DNA from: Halomonas sp.
Lineage (GTDB): Bacteria; Pseudomonadota; Gammaproteobacteria; Pseudomonadales; Halomonadaceae
NCBI RefSeq assembly: GCF_011050415.1
Contig: NZ_DRFS01000022.1
Coordinates: 62,001-126,000 of the forward strand
Direction: 5' to 3'
Length of the DNA: 64,000 nucleotides
Positions 2,473 to 12,316 of the stretch are shown here, in pieces. Position 1 is the stretch's first letter, and each line of letters opens with the position of its first letter. Below the pieces are notes generated by a model that saw only the letters and a list, made by a program, of their open reading frames with translations, was not told the origin of the DNA and searched no databases. Position numbers and translations under genes: made by a program.

Positions 2473-3197
2473 GCCCGGCGAAGCCGGCAACCCCGGACAC
2501 CTGAAAGAAGGTGTCGTCACCCCGACTGAGGGGAAGACAACCCGACTGGCAAGGGCGCCACTGGCCAACGGTGGGGTCTGAAGGAAGCCATAGGGTGTTA
2601 ACGGTACACAACGCAAGTGAACCTGCTTCGGCAGCACAGGTGGGTAAGCGTGCAAAATAGCGCGACGCCCGATACTCAGTCAGGCCTGTGCTGTGTTTGA
2701 GGGTGGCATCGTTAACAGGGAGCCGGTGCAGTAACCGGGGAAGCCTGGCACCGTATCCAGTTTGTCTGGAAGGCACGCGTCAAGGTGAAAGCCAAGAGCG
2801 GGTCGGGTGTGAGGTGGCAGATGATGCCGTAGTAGTGAGGAAGTTCCGGCCTGTGAAGCCTGGTAACAGCGTGGAGGATAAAACCGGATCGACCGCTGGC
2901 GGAGGTTCAGTGGACTGGGCAAGGCCAAAAGCCTTGGTCGGATGCGAAGGGCGGAAGTCATTAATGAGAACGACGGATATTGATCCGAAGGTGGACGCTG
3001 CGTTCACAAGCTGTCCGACGGGGCAGGGAAGTGGGTCGAGGTGCGGTGGGAACACAGTGGCTTCGTCCTTCTCTGAACGAGGGAGTAGAACGACACCGTG
3101 GCGGCAGATTGCCAAGCGCTAGTACCCGGACGGGTCGTTTGAAACAGACCAGTAGCCAGACCGACGATCGGAGCCGTCATCACAGAGATGAGCAGGC

Positions 3198-4475
3198 ATG
3201 AGGAAATACTACAGTCTTTACGGGCAGTTGCTGTCAAAGCAGCGCCTGTATGAAGCCTTCAGACACGTCAAGCGCAACAAAGGTGCGGCCGGAATCGATG
3301 GGCAGAGCCTGAGTGCGTTCGAGGTGAATCTGGAGGTGGAGCTGTCGTGTCTGCTCCTCGAACTGAAGGAAAAGCGCTATCGAGCGCAGCCTGTCAGGCG
3401 CGTTGCCATCGCCAAGGATGACGGCGGTGAACGTCTGTTGGGTATTCCCACGGTTCGAGACCGGGTTGTGCAACAGGCATTACGCAGTATCATCGAACCG
3501 CTCTTCGAACCGGACTTTCATCCCTCGAGCTACGGGTATCGTCCGGGACGCAGTGGCCACCATGCCATTGGCAAGGCGGAGCTGTTCGTGCGCCGCTACC
3601 GGCGTGAATGGGTAGTGGATATGGACTTGTCGAAATGCTTCGACACGTTAAACCACGACCTGATCATCCGCCAGTTCCGCCAACGGATCACGGACGGCAG
3701 TGTGTTGTCGCTGCTGCGCCAGTGCCTGGAAAGCGGCGTGATGGTGGGGCACCACCTTGAAGAGACGGCGCTGGGCAGCCCCCAGGGCGGCGTGATCAGT
3801 CCGCTGATCGCCAACGTCTACCTGGACGCCTTCGACCAGTTCATGAAGGCACGGGGTCATCGAATCGTCCGCTACGCGGACGATATCCTGATCCTGTGCA
3901 GCTCACGGGCTGGAGCGGAGAACGCGTTGAGGGCAGCCCACTGTTATCTGGAAGGTGAGCTGAAGCTGACAGTCAATGCCACCAAGACCCACATCGCGCA
4001 CAGCGACGAGGGGATCAAGTTCCTGGGGGTGGTGATCCACACCAAGTACACCCGCATCCAGGAAAAGAAGGTGGTGAAACTTAAGCAGAAGGTGAAAGCG
4101 TTGACGAAGCGCAATCGAGGTGCAGGGCTTGCGGTGATCATCCGCGAACTGAATCCTGTACTCCGTGGCTTCGCCAATTACTTCCGGGTAGCGAACTGCG
4201 CACGGGTGTTGAAACAGGTGATGAGCTGGGTCAGGCGGCGTCTCCGCTGCGTCCAGCTCAAGCAGTGGAAGAAGCCGAGTCGGCTGCATCGAAGGCTGAA
4301 ACAGTTGGGCTACCGCCCGCCGTTTAAGTACATCAAGATGCAAAGCTGGCGTAACGCGGCGTCACCGCTGGCCCATCTGGCGATCCCCAGCGCCTACTTG
4401 CATGACGATCTGAAGTTGATGGACTTAACGAAGATCAAAACGGGCATCACTGTCCCCGAGTTCGGGGTAAGTTAA
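3198..4475 (+). CDS. ltrA: Group II intron reverse transcriptase/maturase
   Basis: A 425-residue intron-encoded protein. The reverse transcriptase domain (about 20-280) has the fingers motif KGAAGIDG, the GIPTVRDRVVQQAL block, SYGYRPGRS, the D-containing VDMDLSKCFD block, GSPQGGVISP and the catalytic YADD. A maturase/X domain follows (LNPVLRGFANYFRVA, then basic residues). No HNH endonuclease is present at the C-terminus, which is the pattern for class C intron proteins that insert into single-stranded or terminator DNA. It promotes splicing of the surrounding intron and its reverse transcription at new sites. Catalytic residues are intact, so activity is plausible. Confidence 0.95.
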   Translation: MRKYYSLYGQLLSKQRLYEAFRHVKRNKGAAGIDGQSLSAFEVNLEVELSCLLLELKEKRYRAQPVRRVAIAKDDGGERLLGIPTVRDRVVQQALRSIIEPLFEPDFHPSSYGYRPGRSGHHAIGKAELFVRRYRREWVVDMDLSKCFDTLNHDLIIRQFRQRITDGSVLSLLRQCLESGVMVGHHLEETALGSPQGGVISPLIANVYLDAFDQFMKARGHRIVRYADDILILCSSRAGAENALRAAHCYLEGELKLTVNATKTHIAHSDEGIKFLGVVIHTKYTRIQEKKVVKLKQKVKALTKRNRGAGLAVIIRELNPVLRGFANYFRVANCARVLKQVMSWVRRRLRCVQLKQWKKPSRLHRRLKQLGYRPPFKYIKMQSWRNAASPLAHLAIPSAYLHDDLKLMDLTKIKTGITVPEFGVS

Positions 4476-4481
4476 TGGCAT

Positions 4482-4552
4482 GAGCCGTATACGAGGCCCG
4501 TATGTACGGTTCTGTGAGAGGGATGAGGCGGTAACGCCTCACCCTACTCGAT
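4482..4552 (+). ncRNA. Group II intron domains V and VI
   Basis: Domain V starts GAGCCGTA and closes with TACGGTTC (4482-4512), the most conserved ribozyme hairpin. Domain VI follows: GAGGG-ATGAGGCG, loop GTAA, CGCCTCA-CCC-TA-CTC, where the A opposite the 5' arm is the presumed branch-point adenosine. The interval ends at the predicted 3' splice site. Confidence 0.85.
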
Positions 4553-7532: not shown

Positions 7533-8840
7533 TTATGCCGCCTCTAAGGTCGATAAATGGGGAGTATCGTTCTGCTGGTCAGCAATGACCGCTTGGAGCA
7601 CTTCTATATCTGCCGCGCCAAACAGCAGTGCTTGGCGGCAGTTGCTCAGGCTATGCCCGGCGAGCGCTTGCTCGAAGTACCAAGGGCCCAGGGAGGTGTC
7701 ACCATAAAGAACAGCGCCTTCAATCTGTCCATCGCGCAGTAACAGGCGGCGGTAATCGCCTAGTTCAACGTCGTGGTAACTGAGCACTTCGTGCTCATCG
7801 TTAGTCTCGGTGGGGCCAAAGGCGTAGAGCGCAACGCCGCTGATTTTGAGTTTGGTGGCGCTGGGGACATCCACGTAGCAAGGGGTGGTTGTGCCACATA
7901 GCGTGGCGGCGAGTACCTCTACCTGACGCCAGATAGGCTCCACCAAGCCGTAGGTAGTGCCATTAAACTGACAGCATTCGCCAAGCGCAGAAATCGCTGG
8001 GTCACTGGTAGTGAGGTATTCATCCACCACAATGGCGCGCTCGGTAGTAAGACCCGCTTGGTGGCCAAGCTCCGCATTAGGCGTAATACCGGCGGTGATA
8101 ATCACGCTGGTAGCGTTTAGTTGGCGACCATCAAGAAGATGTACTTTGGATACCCGGCCGTTTTCATCGCCCTCTAATTGCGCTAATTCGGCCCCAGTGA
8201 TGATGTTCAAACCGCGCTGGGTCAGTTCCTCTTCAAGCAATTTAGAAGCAGTAGCATCTAGCTGGCGGTTCATCAGTCTATTGCTGCGCTGAAGCACGCT
8301 AACCTGCATTTCATTGCCACGTTTACGCAGGCCTTCGGCAGCTTCTAACCCAAGCAGGCCACCGCCGATAACCACCGCGTCACCACCTTGCTGAGCGATC
8401 TCTGTCAGCGTTGAAGCATCTTGTAAATCGCGGAAGCTGTGCACGCCCTCAAGCGCAATACCTGGAATACTGGGCATCGCTGGGCGCGAACCGGTGGCGA
8501 TTACCAAGTGATCATAATCAAGTGATCGGCCGCTATCCGTGGTTAATGTTTGGCGTGAGCGATCAAGCGCCTCAACCTTCTCACCCAGTATCAGTGCGAT
8601 GCCCTGTACGGCGTACCAATCGGCATCGCGCAGCGTCAGCGCGTCCTGCTGCATTTCACCGGCCAGCAGTGGGGAAAGCAGTATGCGGTTATAGGCAGGC
8701 GCGGGCTCTGCGCCAATCACGGTAATGCGTTGGGGGCGCGTAGGCTGTTTTACCAACGCCTCCACCAAACGATGACTCGCCATGCCGTTACCGATAATCA
8801 CTAGATGTTTGTGAGTCGAGCACCGGGAAGTGGTTTCCAT
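7533..8840 (-). CDS. FAD/NAD(P)H-dependent reductase subunit of assimilatory nitrate reductase (NasC-like of Klebsiella)
   Basis: With the ATG at 8840 (GGAG ribosome site at 8846-8850) the protein has 435 residues. A longer frame from 8864 lacks a ribosome site. FAD motif GNGMASHRLVEAL near the start, NAD site GGGLLGLEAAEGLRKRG, and the ITAGITPNAELG strand are typical of the pyridine nucleotide-disulfide reductase family and close to the N-terminal half of NirB. Unlike some NasC/NasB proteins no [2Fe-2S] BFD domain follows. It is the first gene of the leftward nitrite reductase operon and probably passes NAD(P)H electrons to the nitrate reductase encoded divergently. Expression is predicted to depend on the upstream NtrC/sigma-54 promoter and attenuator leader. 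Confidence 0.85.
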   Translation of the reverse strand: METTSRCSTHKHLVIIGNGMASHRLVEALVKQPTRPQRITVIGAEPAPAYNRILLSPLLAGEMQQDALTLRDADWYAVQGIALILGEKVEALDRSRQTLTTDSGRSLDYDHLVIATGSRPAMPSIPGIALEGVHSFRDLQDASTLTEIAQQGGDAVVIGGGLLGLEAAEGLRKRGNEMQVSVLQRSNRLMNRQLDATASKLLEEELTQRGLNIITGAELAQLEGDENGRVSKVHLLDGRQLNATSVIITAGITPNAELGHQAGLTTERAIVVDEYLTTSDPAISALGECCQFNGTTYGLVEPIWRQVEVLAATLCGTTTPCYVDVPSATKLKISGVALYAFGPTETNDEHEVLSYHDVELGDYRRLLLRDGQIEGAVLYGDTSLGPWYFEQALAGHSLSNCRQALLFGAADIEVLQAVIADQQNDTPHLSTLEAA

Positions 8841-8887: not shown

Positions 8888-8937
8888 AAAAAAACGCCCC
8901 TGATACCCCTCTTCGAGAAAAAGAGGTATCAGGGGCG
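8888..8937 (-). terminator. Leader attenuator terminator of the FAD reductase-nirBD operon
   Basis: Read leftward, arms CGCCCCTGATACC and GGTATCAGGGGCG, extended by CCTCTT/AAGAGG pairing, are followed directly by seven T residues (8888-8894). It lies 47 bases upstream of the first start codon and downstream of the predicted promoter, so it would stop transcription before the genes unless disrupted. Its 5' arm is shared with the competing hairpin described at 8927-8989. Confidence 0.85.
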
Positions 8938-8989
8938 TCGTTGCCCGATAGCGTTGTTTCAAAACGCGCAGCAACCGCCTTTGGCTGCT
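8927..8989 (-). promoter_or_regulatory. ANTAR-type antiterminator RNA (two hexaloop hairpins), presumed NasR target
   Basis: Read leftward: hairpin P1 (8989-8970) has a 7-bp stem AGCAGCC/GGTTGCT and loop AAAGGC. After a 19-base linker, hairpin P2 (8950-8927) has stem TATC-GGGC/GCCC-(CT)-GATA and loop AACGAC. Both loops are six bases with A at position 1 and G at position 4, the hallmark of RNA bound by ANTAR proteins. The 3' arm of P2 is the 5' arm of the terminator at 8888-8937, so the two folds exclude each other. NasR at 28955-30232 is the obvious binder (inference). Nitrate or nitrite would then permit read-through. Confidence 0.8.
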
Positions 8990-9041: not shown

Positions 9042-9058
9042 AGCAAAACATCGGCCAA
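9042..9058 (-). promoter_or_regulatory. Sigma-54 promoter of the FAD reductase-nirBD operon
   Basis: Leftward TTGGCCGATGTTTTGCT matches the -24/-12 consensus (TTGGCACG-N4-TTGCT) at nearly every fixed position, with the required ten bases between GG and GC. Transcription would start near 9031, placing both ANTAR hairpins and the attenuator in the leader RNA. Confidence 0.7.
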
Positions 9059-9410: not shown

Positions 9411-9472
9411 AAAGAACAAGCTTAATCGCAGCAAAAATCTGATGAGTATGGCACCCGAGTAAAGTAGGTGTC

Positions 9473-9493
9473 CCTGAGACAACGGCGTCCAGG
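9473..9493 (+). promoter_or_regulatory. ANTAR-type P2 hairpin in the nasA leader
   Basis: Stem CCTG(A)GAC / GTCCAGG with the six-base loop AACGGC (A at 1, G at 4). Its 3' arm GTCCAGG is also the 5' arm of the terminator at 9485-9531, giving mutually exclusive folds as in the divergent operon. A clear first hairpin (P1) with the same loop rule was not found; an irregular CACC/GGTG hairpin lies just upstream at about 9451-9470. Confidence 0.65.
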
Positions 9494-9531
9494 CAGGCTT
9501 CTTTTTATGAAGCTCGCTTGGGCGCTTTTTT
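9485..9531 (+). terminator. Leader attenuator terminator of the nasA-cobA operon
   Basis: Ten-pair outer stem GCGTCCAGGC / GCTTGGGCGC with G-U pairs, an inner CTTC/GAAG stem, then six T residues (9526-9531). It ends 25 bases before the nasA start codon, so read-through is needed to express nasA. This also rules out the in-frame TTG at 9518 as the start. Confidence 0.8.
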
Positions 9532-9556: not shown

Positions 9557-12316
9557 ATGCCCCAGGCGAACCAGCTTGCCCAGCGAGAAATGCTCACTAC
9601 CTGCCCTTACTGCGGGGTAGGCTGTGGCGTTAAAGCGACCCTGCAAGGCGATATCTTGAGTGGCGTTGAGGGCGACCGTGAGCATCCGGCTAATTATGGT
9701 CTGCTATGCGTAAAGGGGAGCGCACTTCATGAAACCTTGGGGGGGCATGGTCGTTTAACCCAGCCACGGATCGATGGCGTTGAAGTCTCCTGGGCGCAGG
9801 CGTTAACGGTCACGGCCCAGCGGCTAAACGCTCTGCGAGAGGAGCACGGCAATTATACGGTAGCGGGTTATCTGTCAGGACAGCTGCTCACCGAAGATTA
9901 CTATGTCGCCAATAAGTTGTTTAAAGGCTTTCTAGGCACGCCGCATTTAGATACCAACTCGCGGCTCTGCATGGCGTCGGCAGTGGCAGCTTACAAGCGC
10001 GCCTTTGGCGCGGATGCGGTGCCCTGCAACTACGAAGATCTGGAAGAGGCTGAATTGGTGGTGCTGGTGGGCTCTAATCTTGCCTGGAACCATCCGGTGC
10101 TTTATCAGCGCATCAAAGTCGCTAAAGAACGCAACCCGCTGATGCGCTTAGTGGTGATCGACCCTCGAGTAACGGATAGCTGCGAAATCGCTGACCTCTA
10201 CCTGGGTATCAAGCCGGGCAGCGATGCGTATCTATTTAATGGCCTGCTGGCGTGGATGGCGCAGCGAGGCAAGCTCGACACCCTCTATCTAGAGCGGCAT
10301 ACCGAAGGCTTTGTGGAGGCGTTGGCAGCCGCTCAGCAAACGGCAGGTTCGATTGCCGAGGTGGCTGCCGCCTGTGATGTTGACCTCGAGCGTCTAGAGA
10401 CTTTTTACTACTGGTTTGCTAGCCAACTGCACGTGGTCACGCTCTATTCTCAGGGTGTTAATCAATCTTCTAGCGGCACCGATAAGTGCAACGCGATTAT
10501 TAACTGTCACCTGGCTGGCGGAAAACTCGGCTTGCCTGGGGCGGGGCCATTTTCGATTACCGGGCAACCCAACGCCATGGGGGGGCGCGAAGTGGGCGGG
10601 CTTGCTAATCAGCTAGCGGCACACATGGATTACCATACGCCGGGGGCGCTCGATCTTGTTAGCCGTTTTTGGGCCACTGACAGCTTAACTCCTACTTTGC
10701 CTGAAGCGCCTGGCTACAAAGCCGTGGAGCTATTCGAAGCGATTGAGCGCGGTGAAGTAAAGGCGCTGTGGGTCATGGCGACTAACCCGGCGATTAGTCT
10801 GCCCGATGCGGCTCGCGTTCGCGCTGCACTGGAAAAGTGCCCGCTGGTGATTGTCTCCGAATGTGCCGCCCACACTGACTTACTTCCCTACGCTGATATT
10901 GTGCTGCCTGCCTCGGGATGGTCAGAAAAAGATGGCACCGTCACTAACTCCGAGCGGCGAATCTCGCGCCAACGGGGCATGCTGTCGCCTCCCGGTGAGG
11001 CACGCCATGACTGGTGGATAATGTGCGAAGTGGCGAAGCGTTTAGGGTTTGCCGAGGCGTTTAATTATTCGCATCCGTGGGAGATTTTCGACGAGCACGC
11101 GCGGTTATCAGGGTTCGAAAACGATTTTAAAATCACCGCAGCACAAGGCGGGCCGCGGCGCCTATTTGATATCTCGGGGCTTATTGGTTTGGGGCGTGAG
11201 AGATACGATGCCTTGTCACCCATTCAGTGGCCAGTCACTGAGGCGGCACCATCAGGAACCCCGCGCCTATTTGAAGATGGCATTTTTGCTACATCGAACG
11301 GTCGCGCCAAACTGCTGGCGGTTCAGCCGCGAGGGCCTTCGCAAGAACTCTCCACTACTTACCCACTGCGCTTAAATACTGGGCGAATTCGCGATCAGTG
11401 GCACACCATGACGAGAACCGGTCGCGCACCACGGTTAATGAATCACCGCGCAGAACCCTTTATGGAGATACATCCAGACGATGCAGTAGCTGCCGGTGTG
11501 CAAGATCAAGCACTCGCCATGCTCAGCGCCCCAGCAGGTGAGTTTCGCGCCCGCGTGCGGGTATCCAATGCCCAGCGGCGAGGTGAGGTGTTTGTACCTA
11601 TCCACTGGACTGACTGTTTTACAAAACAGGCCAGAAGTAGTGCCTTGATTGCTGGTATCATCGACCCGCTTTCAGGCCAGCCTGAGTCTAAACACGGGGC
11701 GGTAGCGCTTAGCCCATTACCCGCTGCGTGGCAGGCAACGTTACTCATCGCCAATACGCTAACGGATCGGGCGGCTGAGCCTTGGCGGATAAGCGACTAT
11801 TGGGCGCGTATTCCCATGGGCGCTTGCCAGCGCTGGCAACTAGCCGATACTCAACAGGTGGAGGATTGGTTTACACAATGGGCGAACTGGTTGCCAACGC
11901 CCGTTTCTATATGGTCTCAAGACAGTGCTAGCGGTCGGTTTCGCGCTGCTGGGATTGAAAACGGCAGGCTATGTTGGTGGCTGATGGTCGGGCCACCTAA
12001 TGAGCTACCAGGGCTTGCTTGGCTGGAGGCACGTTTTGAAGATGAGGCGCTGAGTACTAACCATCGACGCCGCTTACTCGCAGGCTGCGATGATGGTGCA
12101 GCGGATACCGGGCCAATAGTATGCAGTTGTCATCAGGTGGGCCAAATCACGATTGCTAATGCAATCCGCGATGGTGACACCAGCGTAGAAGCATTAGGTG
12201 CAAGGCTTGCTTGCGGAACCCAGTGCGGCAGTTGTATTCCTGAATTGAAATCACTGATTGAAGAGGAGCGGCTCAATGCGCGCGCTAAGCAAACACCTAA
12301 CACAGAAGTGGCCTGA
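9557..12316 (+). CDS. nasA: Assimilatory nitrate reductase catalytic subunit
   Basis: A 919-residue molybdenum bis-MGD enzyme of the NasA/NarB type that reduces nitrate to nitrite in the cytoplasm. An N-terminal [4Fe-4S] site uses Cys16, Cys19, Cys23 and the Cys of GLLCVKG. The long molybdopterin domains include the MASAVAAYKRAFG and NAMGGREVGGLANQ segments. A C-terminal BFD-like [2Fe-2S] domain (CSCHQVGQ ... CGTQCGSC) probably accepts electrons from the FAD reductase. The ATG at 9557 is chosen because GGAGG lies at 9544-9548; an upstream in-frame TTG falls inside the terminator. cobA overlaps its 3' end. Confidence 0.96.
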   Translation: MPQANQLAQREMLTTCPYCGVGCGVKATLQGDILSGVEGDREHPANYGLLCVKGSALHETLGGHGRLTQPRIDGVEVSWAQALTVTAQRLNALREEHGNYTVAGYLSGQLLTEDYYVANKLFKGFLGTPHLDTNSRLCMASAVAAYKRAFGADAVPCNYEDLEEAELVVLVGSNLAWNHPVLYQRIKVAKERNPLMRLVVIDPRVTDSCEIADLYLGIKPGSDAYLFNGLLAWMAQRGKLDTLYLERHTEGFVEALAAAQQTAGSIAEVAAACDVDLERLETFYYWFASQLHVVTLYSQGVNQSSSGTDKCNAIINCHLAGGKLGLPGAGPFSITGQPNAMGGREVGGLANQLAAHMDYHTPGALDLVSRFWATDSLTPTLPEAPGYKAVELFEAIERGEVKALWVMATNPAISLPDAARVRAALEKCPLVIVSECAAHTDLLPYADIVLPASGWSEKDGTVTNSERRISRQRGMLSPPGEARHDWWIMCEVAKRLGFAEAFNYSHPWEIFDEHARLSGFENDFKITAAQGGPRRLFDISGLIGLGRERYDALSPIQWPVTEAAPSGTPRLFEDGIFATSNGRAKLLAVQPRGPSQELSTTYPLRLNTGRIRDQWHTMTRTGRAPRLMNHRAEPFMEIHPDDAVAAGVQDQALAMLSAPAGEFRARVRVSNAQRRGEVFVPIHWTDCFTKQARSSALIAGIIDPLSGQPESKHGAVALSPLPAAWQATLLIANTLTDRAAEPWRISDYWARIPMGACQRWQLADTQQVEDWFTQWANWLPTPVSIWSQDSASGRFRAAGIENGRLCWWLMVGPPNELPGLAWLEARFEDEALSTNHRRRLLAGCDDGAADTGPIVCSCHQVGQITIANAIRDGDTSVEALGARLACGTQCGSCIPELKSLIEEERLNARAKQTPNTEVA

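Follow-up and report, generated by a model that had tools for sequence, protein, structure and literature searches.

The window, by which we mean the whole 64,000-nucleotide stretch of Halomonas sp. DNA that was analyzed, carries on its minus strand a reductase-nirB-nirD operon, with a molybdopterin oxidoreductase gene diverging from it and the genes of a NIT-ANTAR regulator and a transporter farther along. The genes concerned are as follows.

8840-7533, minus strand: pyridine nucleotide/FAD-type reductase, first gene of the operon (domain and family matches)
7531-5006, minus strand: nirB, nitrite reductase large subunit (family match above cut-off)
4974-4567, minus strand: nirD, nitrite reductase small subunit (TIGR02378 above cut-off)
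9557-12316, plus strand: molybdopterin oxidoreductase, probably assimilatory nitrate reductase (nasA), divergent from nirBD (Pfam domains)
30250-28955, minus strand: NasR, with a NIT nitrate/nitrite sensor domain (6.9e-49) and an ANTAR RNA-binding domain (1.6e-20)
31657-30305, minus strand: NarK-family nitrate/nitrite transporter, encoded ahead of nasR in the same orientation (306.7 bits, just under the cut-off of 311.7)

The divergent oxidoreductase is probably nasA because of its domain and structure matches and because nirBD and a siroheme-synthesis gene lie alongside; its NCBIfam matches, to formate dehydrogenase and to NasC/NasA, are all below cut-off, and among solved structures it comes closest to a periplasmic nitrate reductase (E 1.3e-102). 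Just past the end of nirD lies a group II intron (2558-4552, plus strand) with a reverse transcriptase/maturase open reading frame at 3198-4475.

The upstream region of the operon is occupied by a structured leader, whose elements follow one another on the minus strand from the promoter match at 9058 to the first ATG at 8840 in this order.

9058-9041, minus strand: sigma-54-type promoter match, TTGGCCGATGTTTTGCTT, with GG at -24 and GC at -12
8990-8969, minus strand: P1 hairpin, UAGCAGCC-AAAGGC-GGUUGCUG, hexaloop AAAGGC at 8982-8977, stem with covariation
8967-8951, minus strand: predicted linker hairpin, GCGUU-UUGAAAC-AACGC, between P1 and P2
8946-8933, minus strand: P2 hairpin, GGGC-AACGAC-GCCC, hexaloop AACGAC at 8942-8937, stem with covariation across genera
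8938-8888, minus strand: intrinsic terminator, 21-bp stem and U tract

An earlier note, made from the sequence alone, had described two hairpins whose hexaloops both have A at position 1 and G at position 4 (A1/G4), a strong terminator that reuses the 3' arm of the second hairpin, and a location between a sigma-54 match and the first start codon, and all of this holds at this place on the minus strand; the predicted linker hairpin, and the leaders of the divergent gene and of nrtA described below, were absent from that note. Indeed, the 5' arm of the terminator contains the 3' arm of P2, and the terminator by itself has a folding energy of -35.9 kcal/mol (z -8.8; none of 200 shuffles equally stable). 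P2 and the terminator are mutually exclusive: the fold predicted without the 3' arm of the terminator consists of P1, the linker hairpin and P2 (z -2.3; 4/200 shuffles as stable), and once that arm is present P2 is replaced by the terminator. Both hexaloops are closed by a C-G pair (C8983-G8976 in P1, C8943-G8936 in P2), the loop closure given as the NasR preference in SELEX in the accessible part of PMC7496416. The raw linker between P1 and P2 is 22 nt long.

NasR, which the earlier note had placed about 20 kb from the leader with NIT and ANTAR domains, is confirmed as such by the domain matches and by its alignment with the Klebsiella NasR structure 4akk (residues 19-424 of 431, E 3.4e-50). 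We hypothesize, and regard as very probable, that the leader is an ANTAR-protein-dependent transcription attenuator, through which NasR together with nitrate or nitrite causes reductase-nirB-nirD to be transcribed; most likely, this conserved RNA element is a switch by which a nitrate-sensing protein activates the genes of nitrite reduction. RNA polymerase would start at the sigma-54-type promoter, and P1 would be the first element made. If neither nitrate nor nitrite is present, the highly stable terminator would win over P2 and transcription would end about 47 nt short of the first gene; with either ion present, NasR would open and its ANTAR domains would bind the hexaloops of P1 and P2, so that P2 would be held, the terminator blocked and the operon transcribed. 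NasR binding, nitrate sensing and read-through at the leader we infer by analogy with Klebsiella NasR.

A variant that overlaps with this explanation, and that we consider improbable, holds that NasR does read P1 and P2 while the main input is another, for example NtrC acting through sigma-54, with nitrate playing a minor part. The sigma-54 match before the leader is what nitrogen control would lead one to expect; the exact pattern lies at 9057-9042 but carries little weight by itself, the window having 4 matches where 2.2 are expected, and a broad version of it was seen in 116/148 upstream regions of the family, a count made without a shuffled control. NtrC/sigma-54 control and antitermination are combined at Klebsiella nasF. 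The two controls are thus compatible, as they also are at Pseudomonas nirBD, where the sigma-54 promoter is described as working with NtrC in the available text of PMC12830290, and the NIT domain of the protein encoded here matches the nitrate/nitrite sensor of structure 4akk.

It is less likely still that the leader is an ANTAR target on which an AmiR-like protein acts in place of NasR. The genome does encode a second ANTAR domain (one further match, on contig C30), and ANTAR proteins share a loop preference according to the accessible part of PMC7496416; however, the N-terminal domain of this second protein is of the AmiR type and its gene is flanked by two genes for substrate-binding proteins, which makes an amide-type signal likely, and in 36 of the 44 genus genomes that carry the first gene there is a single ANTAR match, in an open frame of at least 413 aa as in NasR.

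The specificity of the motif was assessed in the upstream regions of the first gene, which was found in 148 of 201 family genomes (all 148 were used; the first detection runs covered 30 loci and were later extended). The named relatives found belong to Vreelandella, Halomonas and Billgrantia, together with similar strains, the closest being 77-84% identical in the first gene. With a detection rule that requires two C-G-closed hexaloops and a terminator formed by re-pairing of the second, 92/148 genomes were found to have A1/G4 in both loops; among the 15 other letter pairs, one was recovered once and 14 not at all. When G was also allowed at position 1 of the P2 loop, as is seen in several genera, leaders were found in 115/148, and strict detection rules gave 57/148. 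An intermediate version of the script returned 114/148, with A1/G4 in both loops in 94 and the other letter pairs at 0 or 1, and a shorter script applied to named-species loci found leaders in 39/50. A noisy scan free of letter rules pointed to the same positions (P2 loops: A1 in 87/127, G4 in 107/127; P1 loops: A1 in 89/119, G4 in 84/119). A covariance model of 25 leaders (R3, alignment A6), from which the window sequence and 16 loci with a first gene at least 78% identical were left out, placed the window site first in the whole 4.7-Mb genome (51.4 bits, E 1.6e-9). A model that includes the window sequence (R1) scored 60.6 bits at the site and matched 43/51 genus genomes at E up to 0.1. A chance origin of the motif as a whole is excluded. 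In an Rfam search of the window, no family reached gathering score at the leader, the only matches being two to group II introns.

The two stems also covary. The earlier note had proposed looking for covariation in both stems across relatives, and compensatory changes are seen in P1 and P2 alike: among 31 distinct leaders, 66 paired cells are changed on both sides (22.0 in shuffles), 95.9% of cells are paired (84.2% in shuffles) and the covariation score is 0.52 (0.29 in shuffles; 0/500 shuffles as high). The evidence from counting whole pairs with changes on both sides is less clear (7 vs 4.4; 11/500 shuffles as high), and further pair types are no more numerous in these 31 leaders than in shuffles (16 vs 15.7). 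Leaving out the window and its closest relatives does not alter this pattern (42 both-sided cells vs 14.1).

Leader presence tracks ANTAR presence across the family. The 148 genomes were sorted by ANTAR and NIT matches, with regulator labels taken from open-frame length and NIT matches in place of NasT/NasS family models and with extra weak ANTAR matches ignored; among the matches listed, 61 genomes carry NasR only, 11 both types, 70 a NasT-like protein only and 6 neither. Leaders were found in 56/61, 8/11, 51/70 and 0/6 of these classes, respectively (classes among the matches listed), that is, in 115/142 ANTAR-positive and 0/6 ANTAR-less genomes (Fisher p 8.4e-5, uncorrected for kinship). 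The script detected no leader in 27 of the 142 ANTAR-positive genomes, several of which show P1 and P2 by eye with weaker T tracts or bulged stems. The six ANTAR-less genomes retain the first gene and are 99-100% complete among those listed; by eye, their upstream regions lack hairpins of the leader type and keep a sigma-54-like sequence. These six fall into two genera and therefore probably represent only two independent losses. In a class-level comparison, NirB relatives were found in 25/143 genomes, and of nine such loci scanned one (L216) gave a candidate leader, with a 58-nt linker. One genome (G160) offers a natural case without P1: its nirBD leader (L017) has P2 and the terminator, P1 was not found, the P1 stem of its divergent leader is also broken, and NasR is present.

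The A1/G4 specificity, the covariation of P1 and P2 and the absence of leaders from ANTAR-less genomes make it the least credible reading of all that the element is a plain terminator limiting transcripts that start at the sigma-54-type promoter or enter from outside, with P1 and P2 incidental, even though P2 is far less stable than the terminator. The same three lines, together with the leave-out model R3, the presence of NasR in the window and the further leaders before nrtA and a nasA-type gene, support the leader as an ANTAR target, and with it the ANTAR-antiterminator architecture that had been proposed before this nas-nir operon. Counted against NasR-dependent attenuation are the 22-nt linker, longer than the 5-12 nt of eut leaders, a linker hairpin no better than shuffles, the near-chance sigma-54 match taken alone, the 27/142 ANTAR-positive genomes with undetected leaders and the probably only two independent losses among the ANTAR-less genomes.

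The mechanism itself is already known from Klebsiella nasF with NasR. In the accessible sections of PMC3369931 and PMC7496416, the Klebsiella oxytoca nasF/NasR system shares with the present one a NIT-ANTAR regulator, an A1/G4 two-hairpin RNA, a terminator that overlaps P2 and the control of nitrate assimilation genes; what sets the present system apart is that nirBD and the nasA-type gene point away from each other, each behind its own leader, that a third leader precedes nrtA and that the linker of the nirBD leader includes a predicted hairpin. The Pseudomonas nirBD/NasT system is alike in its nirBD operon, sigma-54 promoter and leader hairpin overcome by an ANTAR protein (available text of PMC12830290), and differs in that the sensor NasS is a protein of its own, which inhibits NasT, whereas here the sensor domain is within NasR. 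A dual-hexaloop RNA whose P2 is exclusive with the terminator is likewise present in Enterococcus faecalis eut/EutV, where linkers are 5-12 nt (22 nt here, up to 140 nt in relatives) and the input is a two-component system (NIT here). The NasS-NasT leaders of Paracoccus and Bradyrhizobium also pair an ANTAR protein with a leader RNA of nitrogen-oxide genes (PMC3795266 and PMC6759348, in the parts available), although the sensor there is a separate protein, as in other Halomonadaceae genera. Halomonas genomes are described as split into NasR and NasST clades (PMC8014003, available part), with which the open-frame lengths of the ANTAR matches here agree; the term "leader" is absent from that paper on NasR/NasST distribution, in the text as available. 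Among the titles and abstracts listed by the literature searches, none reports a halomonad ANTAR leader; such an element might appear in Table S2 of PMC3369931. Our results indicate that Vreelandella and its relatives share an RNA-level control of nitrate assimilation of the NasR type.

Further leaders accompany nitrate genes in the same genome. Upstream of the divergent nasA-type gene, the following elements are seen.

9450-9472, plus strand: hairpin in the P1 position, with an 11-nt loop here and a hexaloop in relatives
9478-9489, plus strand: P2-type hairpin, hexaloop AACGGC
9484-9531, plus strand: terminator, U6 (z -4.2)

Covariance model R2 gives this leader 14.4 bits (E 0.11 in the window, 8.3 genome-wide). 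In a letter-controlled scan of 30 nasA-side loci, a terminator-overlapping hexaloop was found 26 times with A1/G4, 17 times with G1/G4 and 0-5 times with other pairs; a pattern fitted to these sites matched P2 and a T tract in 27/27 genus loci (the downstream gene being not annotated in each) and was unmatched in three loci of other genera (of the 30). A P1 hairpin is present in 26/27 genus loci, with linkers of 4-7 nt, and its loops deviate, 16/26 starting with G and 2/26 having A and G4; given these deviations and the 11-nt loop in the window species, P1 may be weak or lost on this side.

Elsewhere in the genome, a complete leader lies in front of the gene of an NrtA-type nitrate transporter (contig C19, L155, 1502-1554, minus strand). 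It comprises a sigma-54-like match, a P1 loop AACGCU, a 17-nt linker, a P2 loop AACGGC and a terminator, and the protein encoded after it matches solved NrtA 2g29 (E 3.6e-176). The leader is visible in all five homologues among 51 genus genomes, and the pattern matched in 4/4 tried. Model R3 places it third in the genome (19.3 bits, E 0.19), and its R2 score is not independent because it was in the training set of that model; the case for the nrtA leader rests on anatomy, conservation and the gene downstream. A site that ranks above it in the R3 genome search, C24:300233 (E 0.14, 0.55 and 0.08 in three genome searches), was rejected as another leader, since no P2 and terminator could be seen by eye in 200 bases. 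The nirBD, nasA-type and nrtA leaders probably make up a small nitrate regulon, in which uptake and the reduction of nitrate and of nitrite may each be under a separate leader.

The distance between P1 and P2 sets these leaders apart from those of eut, for which the accessible parts of PMC3369931 and PMC8934654 give linkers of 5-12 nt, drastically lowered induction in vivo at 14 nt and antitermination abolished in vitro by a 20-nt extension; an actinobacterial ANTAR curation accepted 2-25 nt (PMC8164766, available part). Across the family, detected leaders have linkers of 5-140 nt, some of the longest being doubtful picks. Among the matches listed, linkers span 10-120 nt in NasR-only genomes (median 33.5; more than 25 nt in 30/56), 6-17 nt in genomes with both regulators and 5-140 nt in NasT-like-only genomes (more than 25 nt in 24/51). 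Within single genomes, nasA-type linkers are 4-7 nt long whereas nirBD linkers are 10-62 nt long (6 vs 62 nt in G164).

Distant P1 copies appear to be real because their A1/G4 letters are enriched: among C-G-closed hexaloop hairpins with 5-bp stems, of which about 1/16 would be A1/G4 by letters alone, A1/G4 was found in 16/20 at 31-60 nt, 14/20 at 61-100 nt and 8/16 at 101-160 nt, in sequences that are related and in leaders preselected for an A1/G4 P1 somewhere. In 27 distinct P1 stems with linkers of at least 33 nt, the first four positions are fully paired, with several pair types. Cryptic nearer copies of P1 inside long linkers were considered and set aside, A1/G4 being little enriched among the hexaloop hairpins there (6/46). 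P1 starts 7-41 nt after the predicted start site in 36/41 genus leaders; the other five look like mis-picked promoters.

Folding of the linker may restore a short spacing within the genus, on modest statistics. If the predicted hairpin forms, 5 nt of the window linker remain unpaired (against shuffles, p 0.33 for exposed bases and p 0.11 for energy). In the folding test, which left out linkers below 15 nt, duplicates and the doubtful-P1 leaders L050, L111, L122, L125 and L136, at most 6 bases are predicted to be unpaired in 21 of 35 distinct genus linkers, and exactly 5 in 16 (shuffled mean 11.4); taken singly, 2/35 reach p<0.1 and 12/35 reach p<0.05 for energy. Pairing of the linker hairpin is kept in 93% of cells over 20 genus sequences, with changes that are mostly one-sided, so that its structure is weakly supported. 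Outside the genus, 37 distinct linkers have a median of 17 unpaired bases (at most 6 in 6/37), and hairpin bridging is therefore not a family rule. We consider it possible, with rather more doubt than confidence, that Halomonadaceae ANTAR antitermination spans P1-P2 linkers far longer than EutV tolerates, P1 serving as a promoter-proximal recruitment site and the distance to P2 being either bridged by linker hairpins or unconstrained; NasR would then act on the short nasA-type linkers and the long nirBD linkers of one and the same genome. Two leaders of genus g12 (L029 and L032), from genomes sorted as carrying both NasR and a NasT-like protein, have three successive A1/G4 hexaloop hairpins before the terminator. 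With a natural series of linker lengths available within one protein class, the spacing requirement reported for ANTAR antitermination becomes directly testable.
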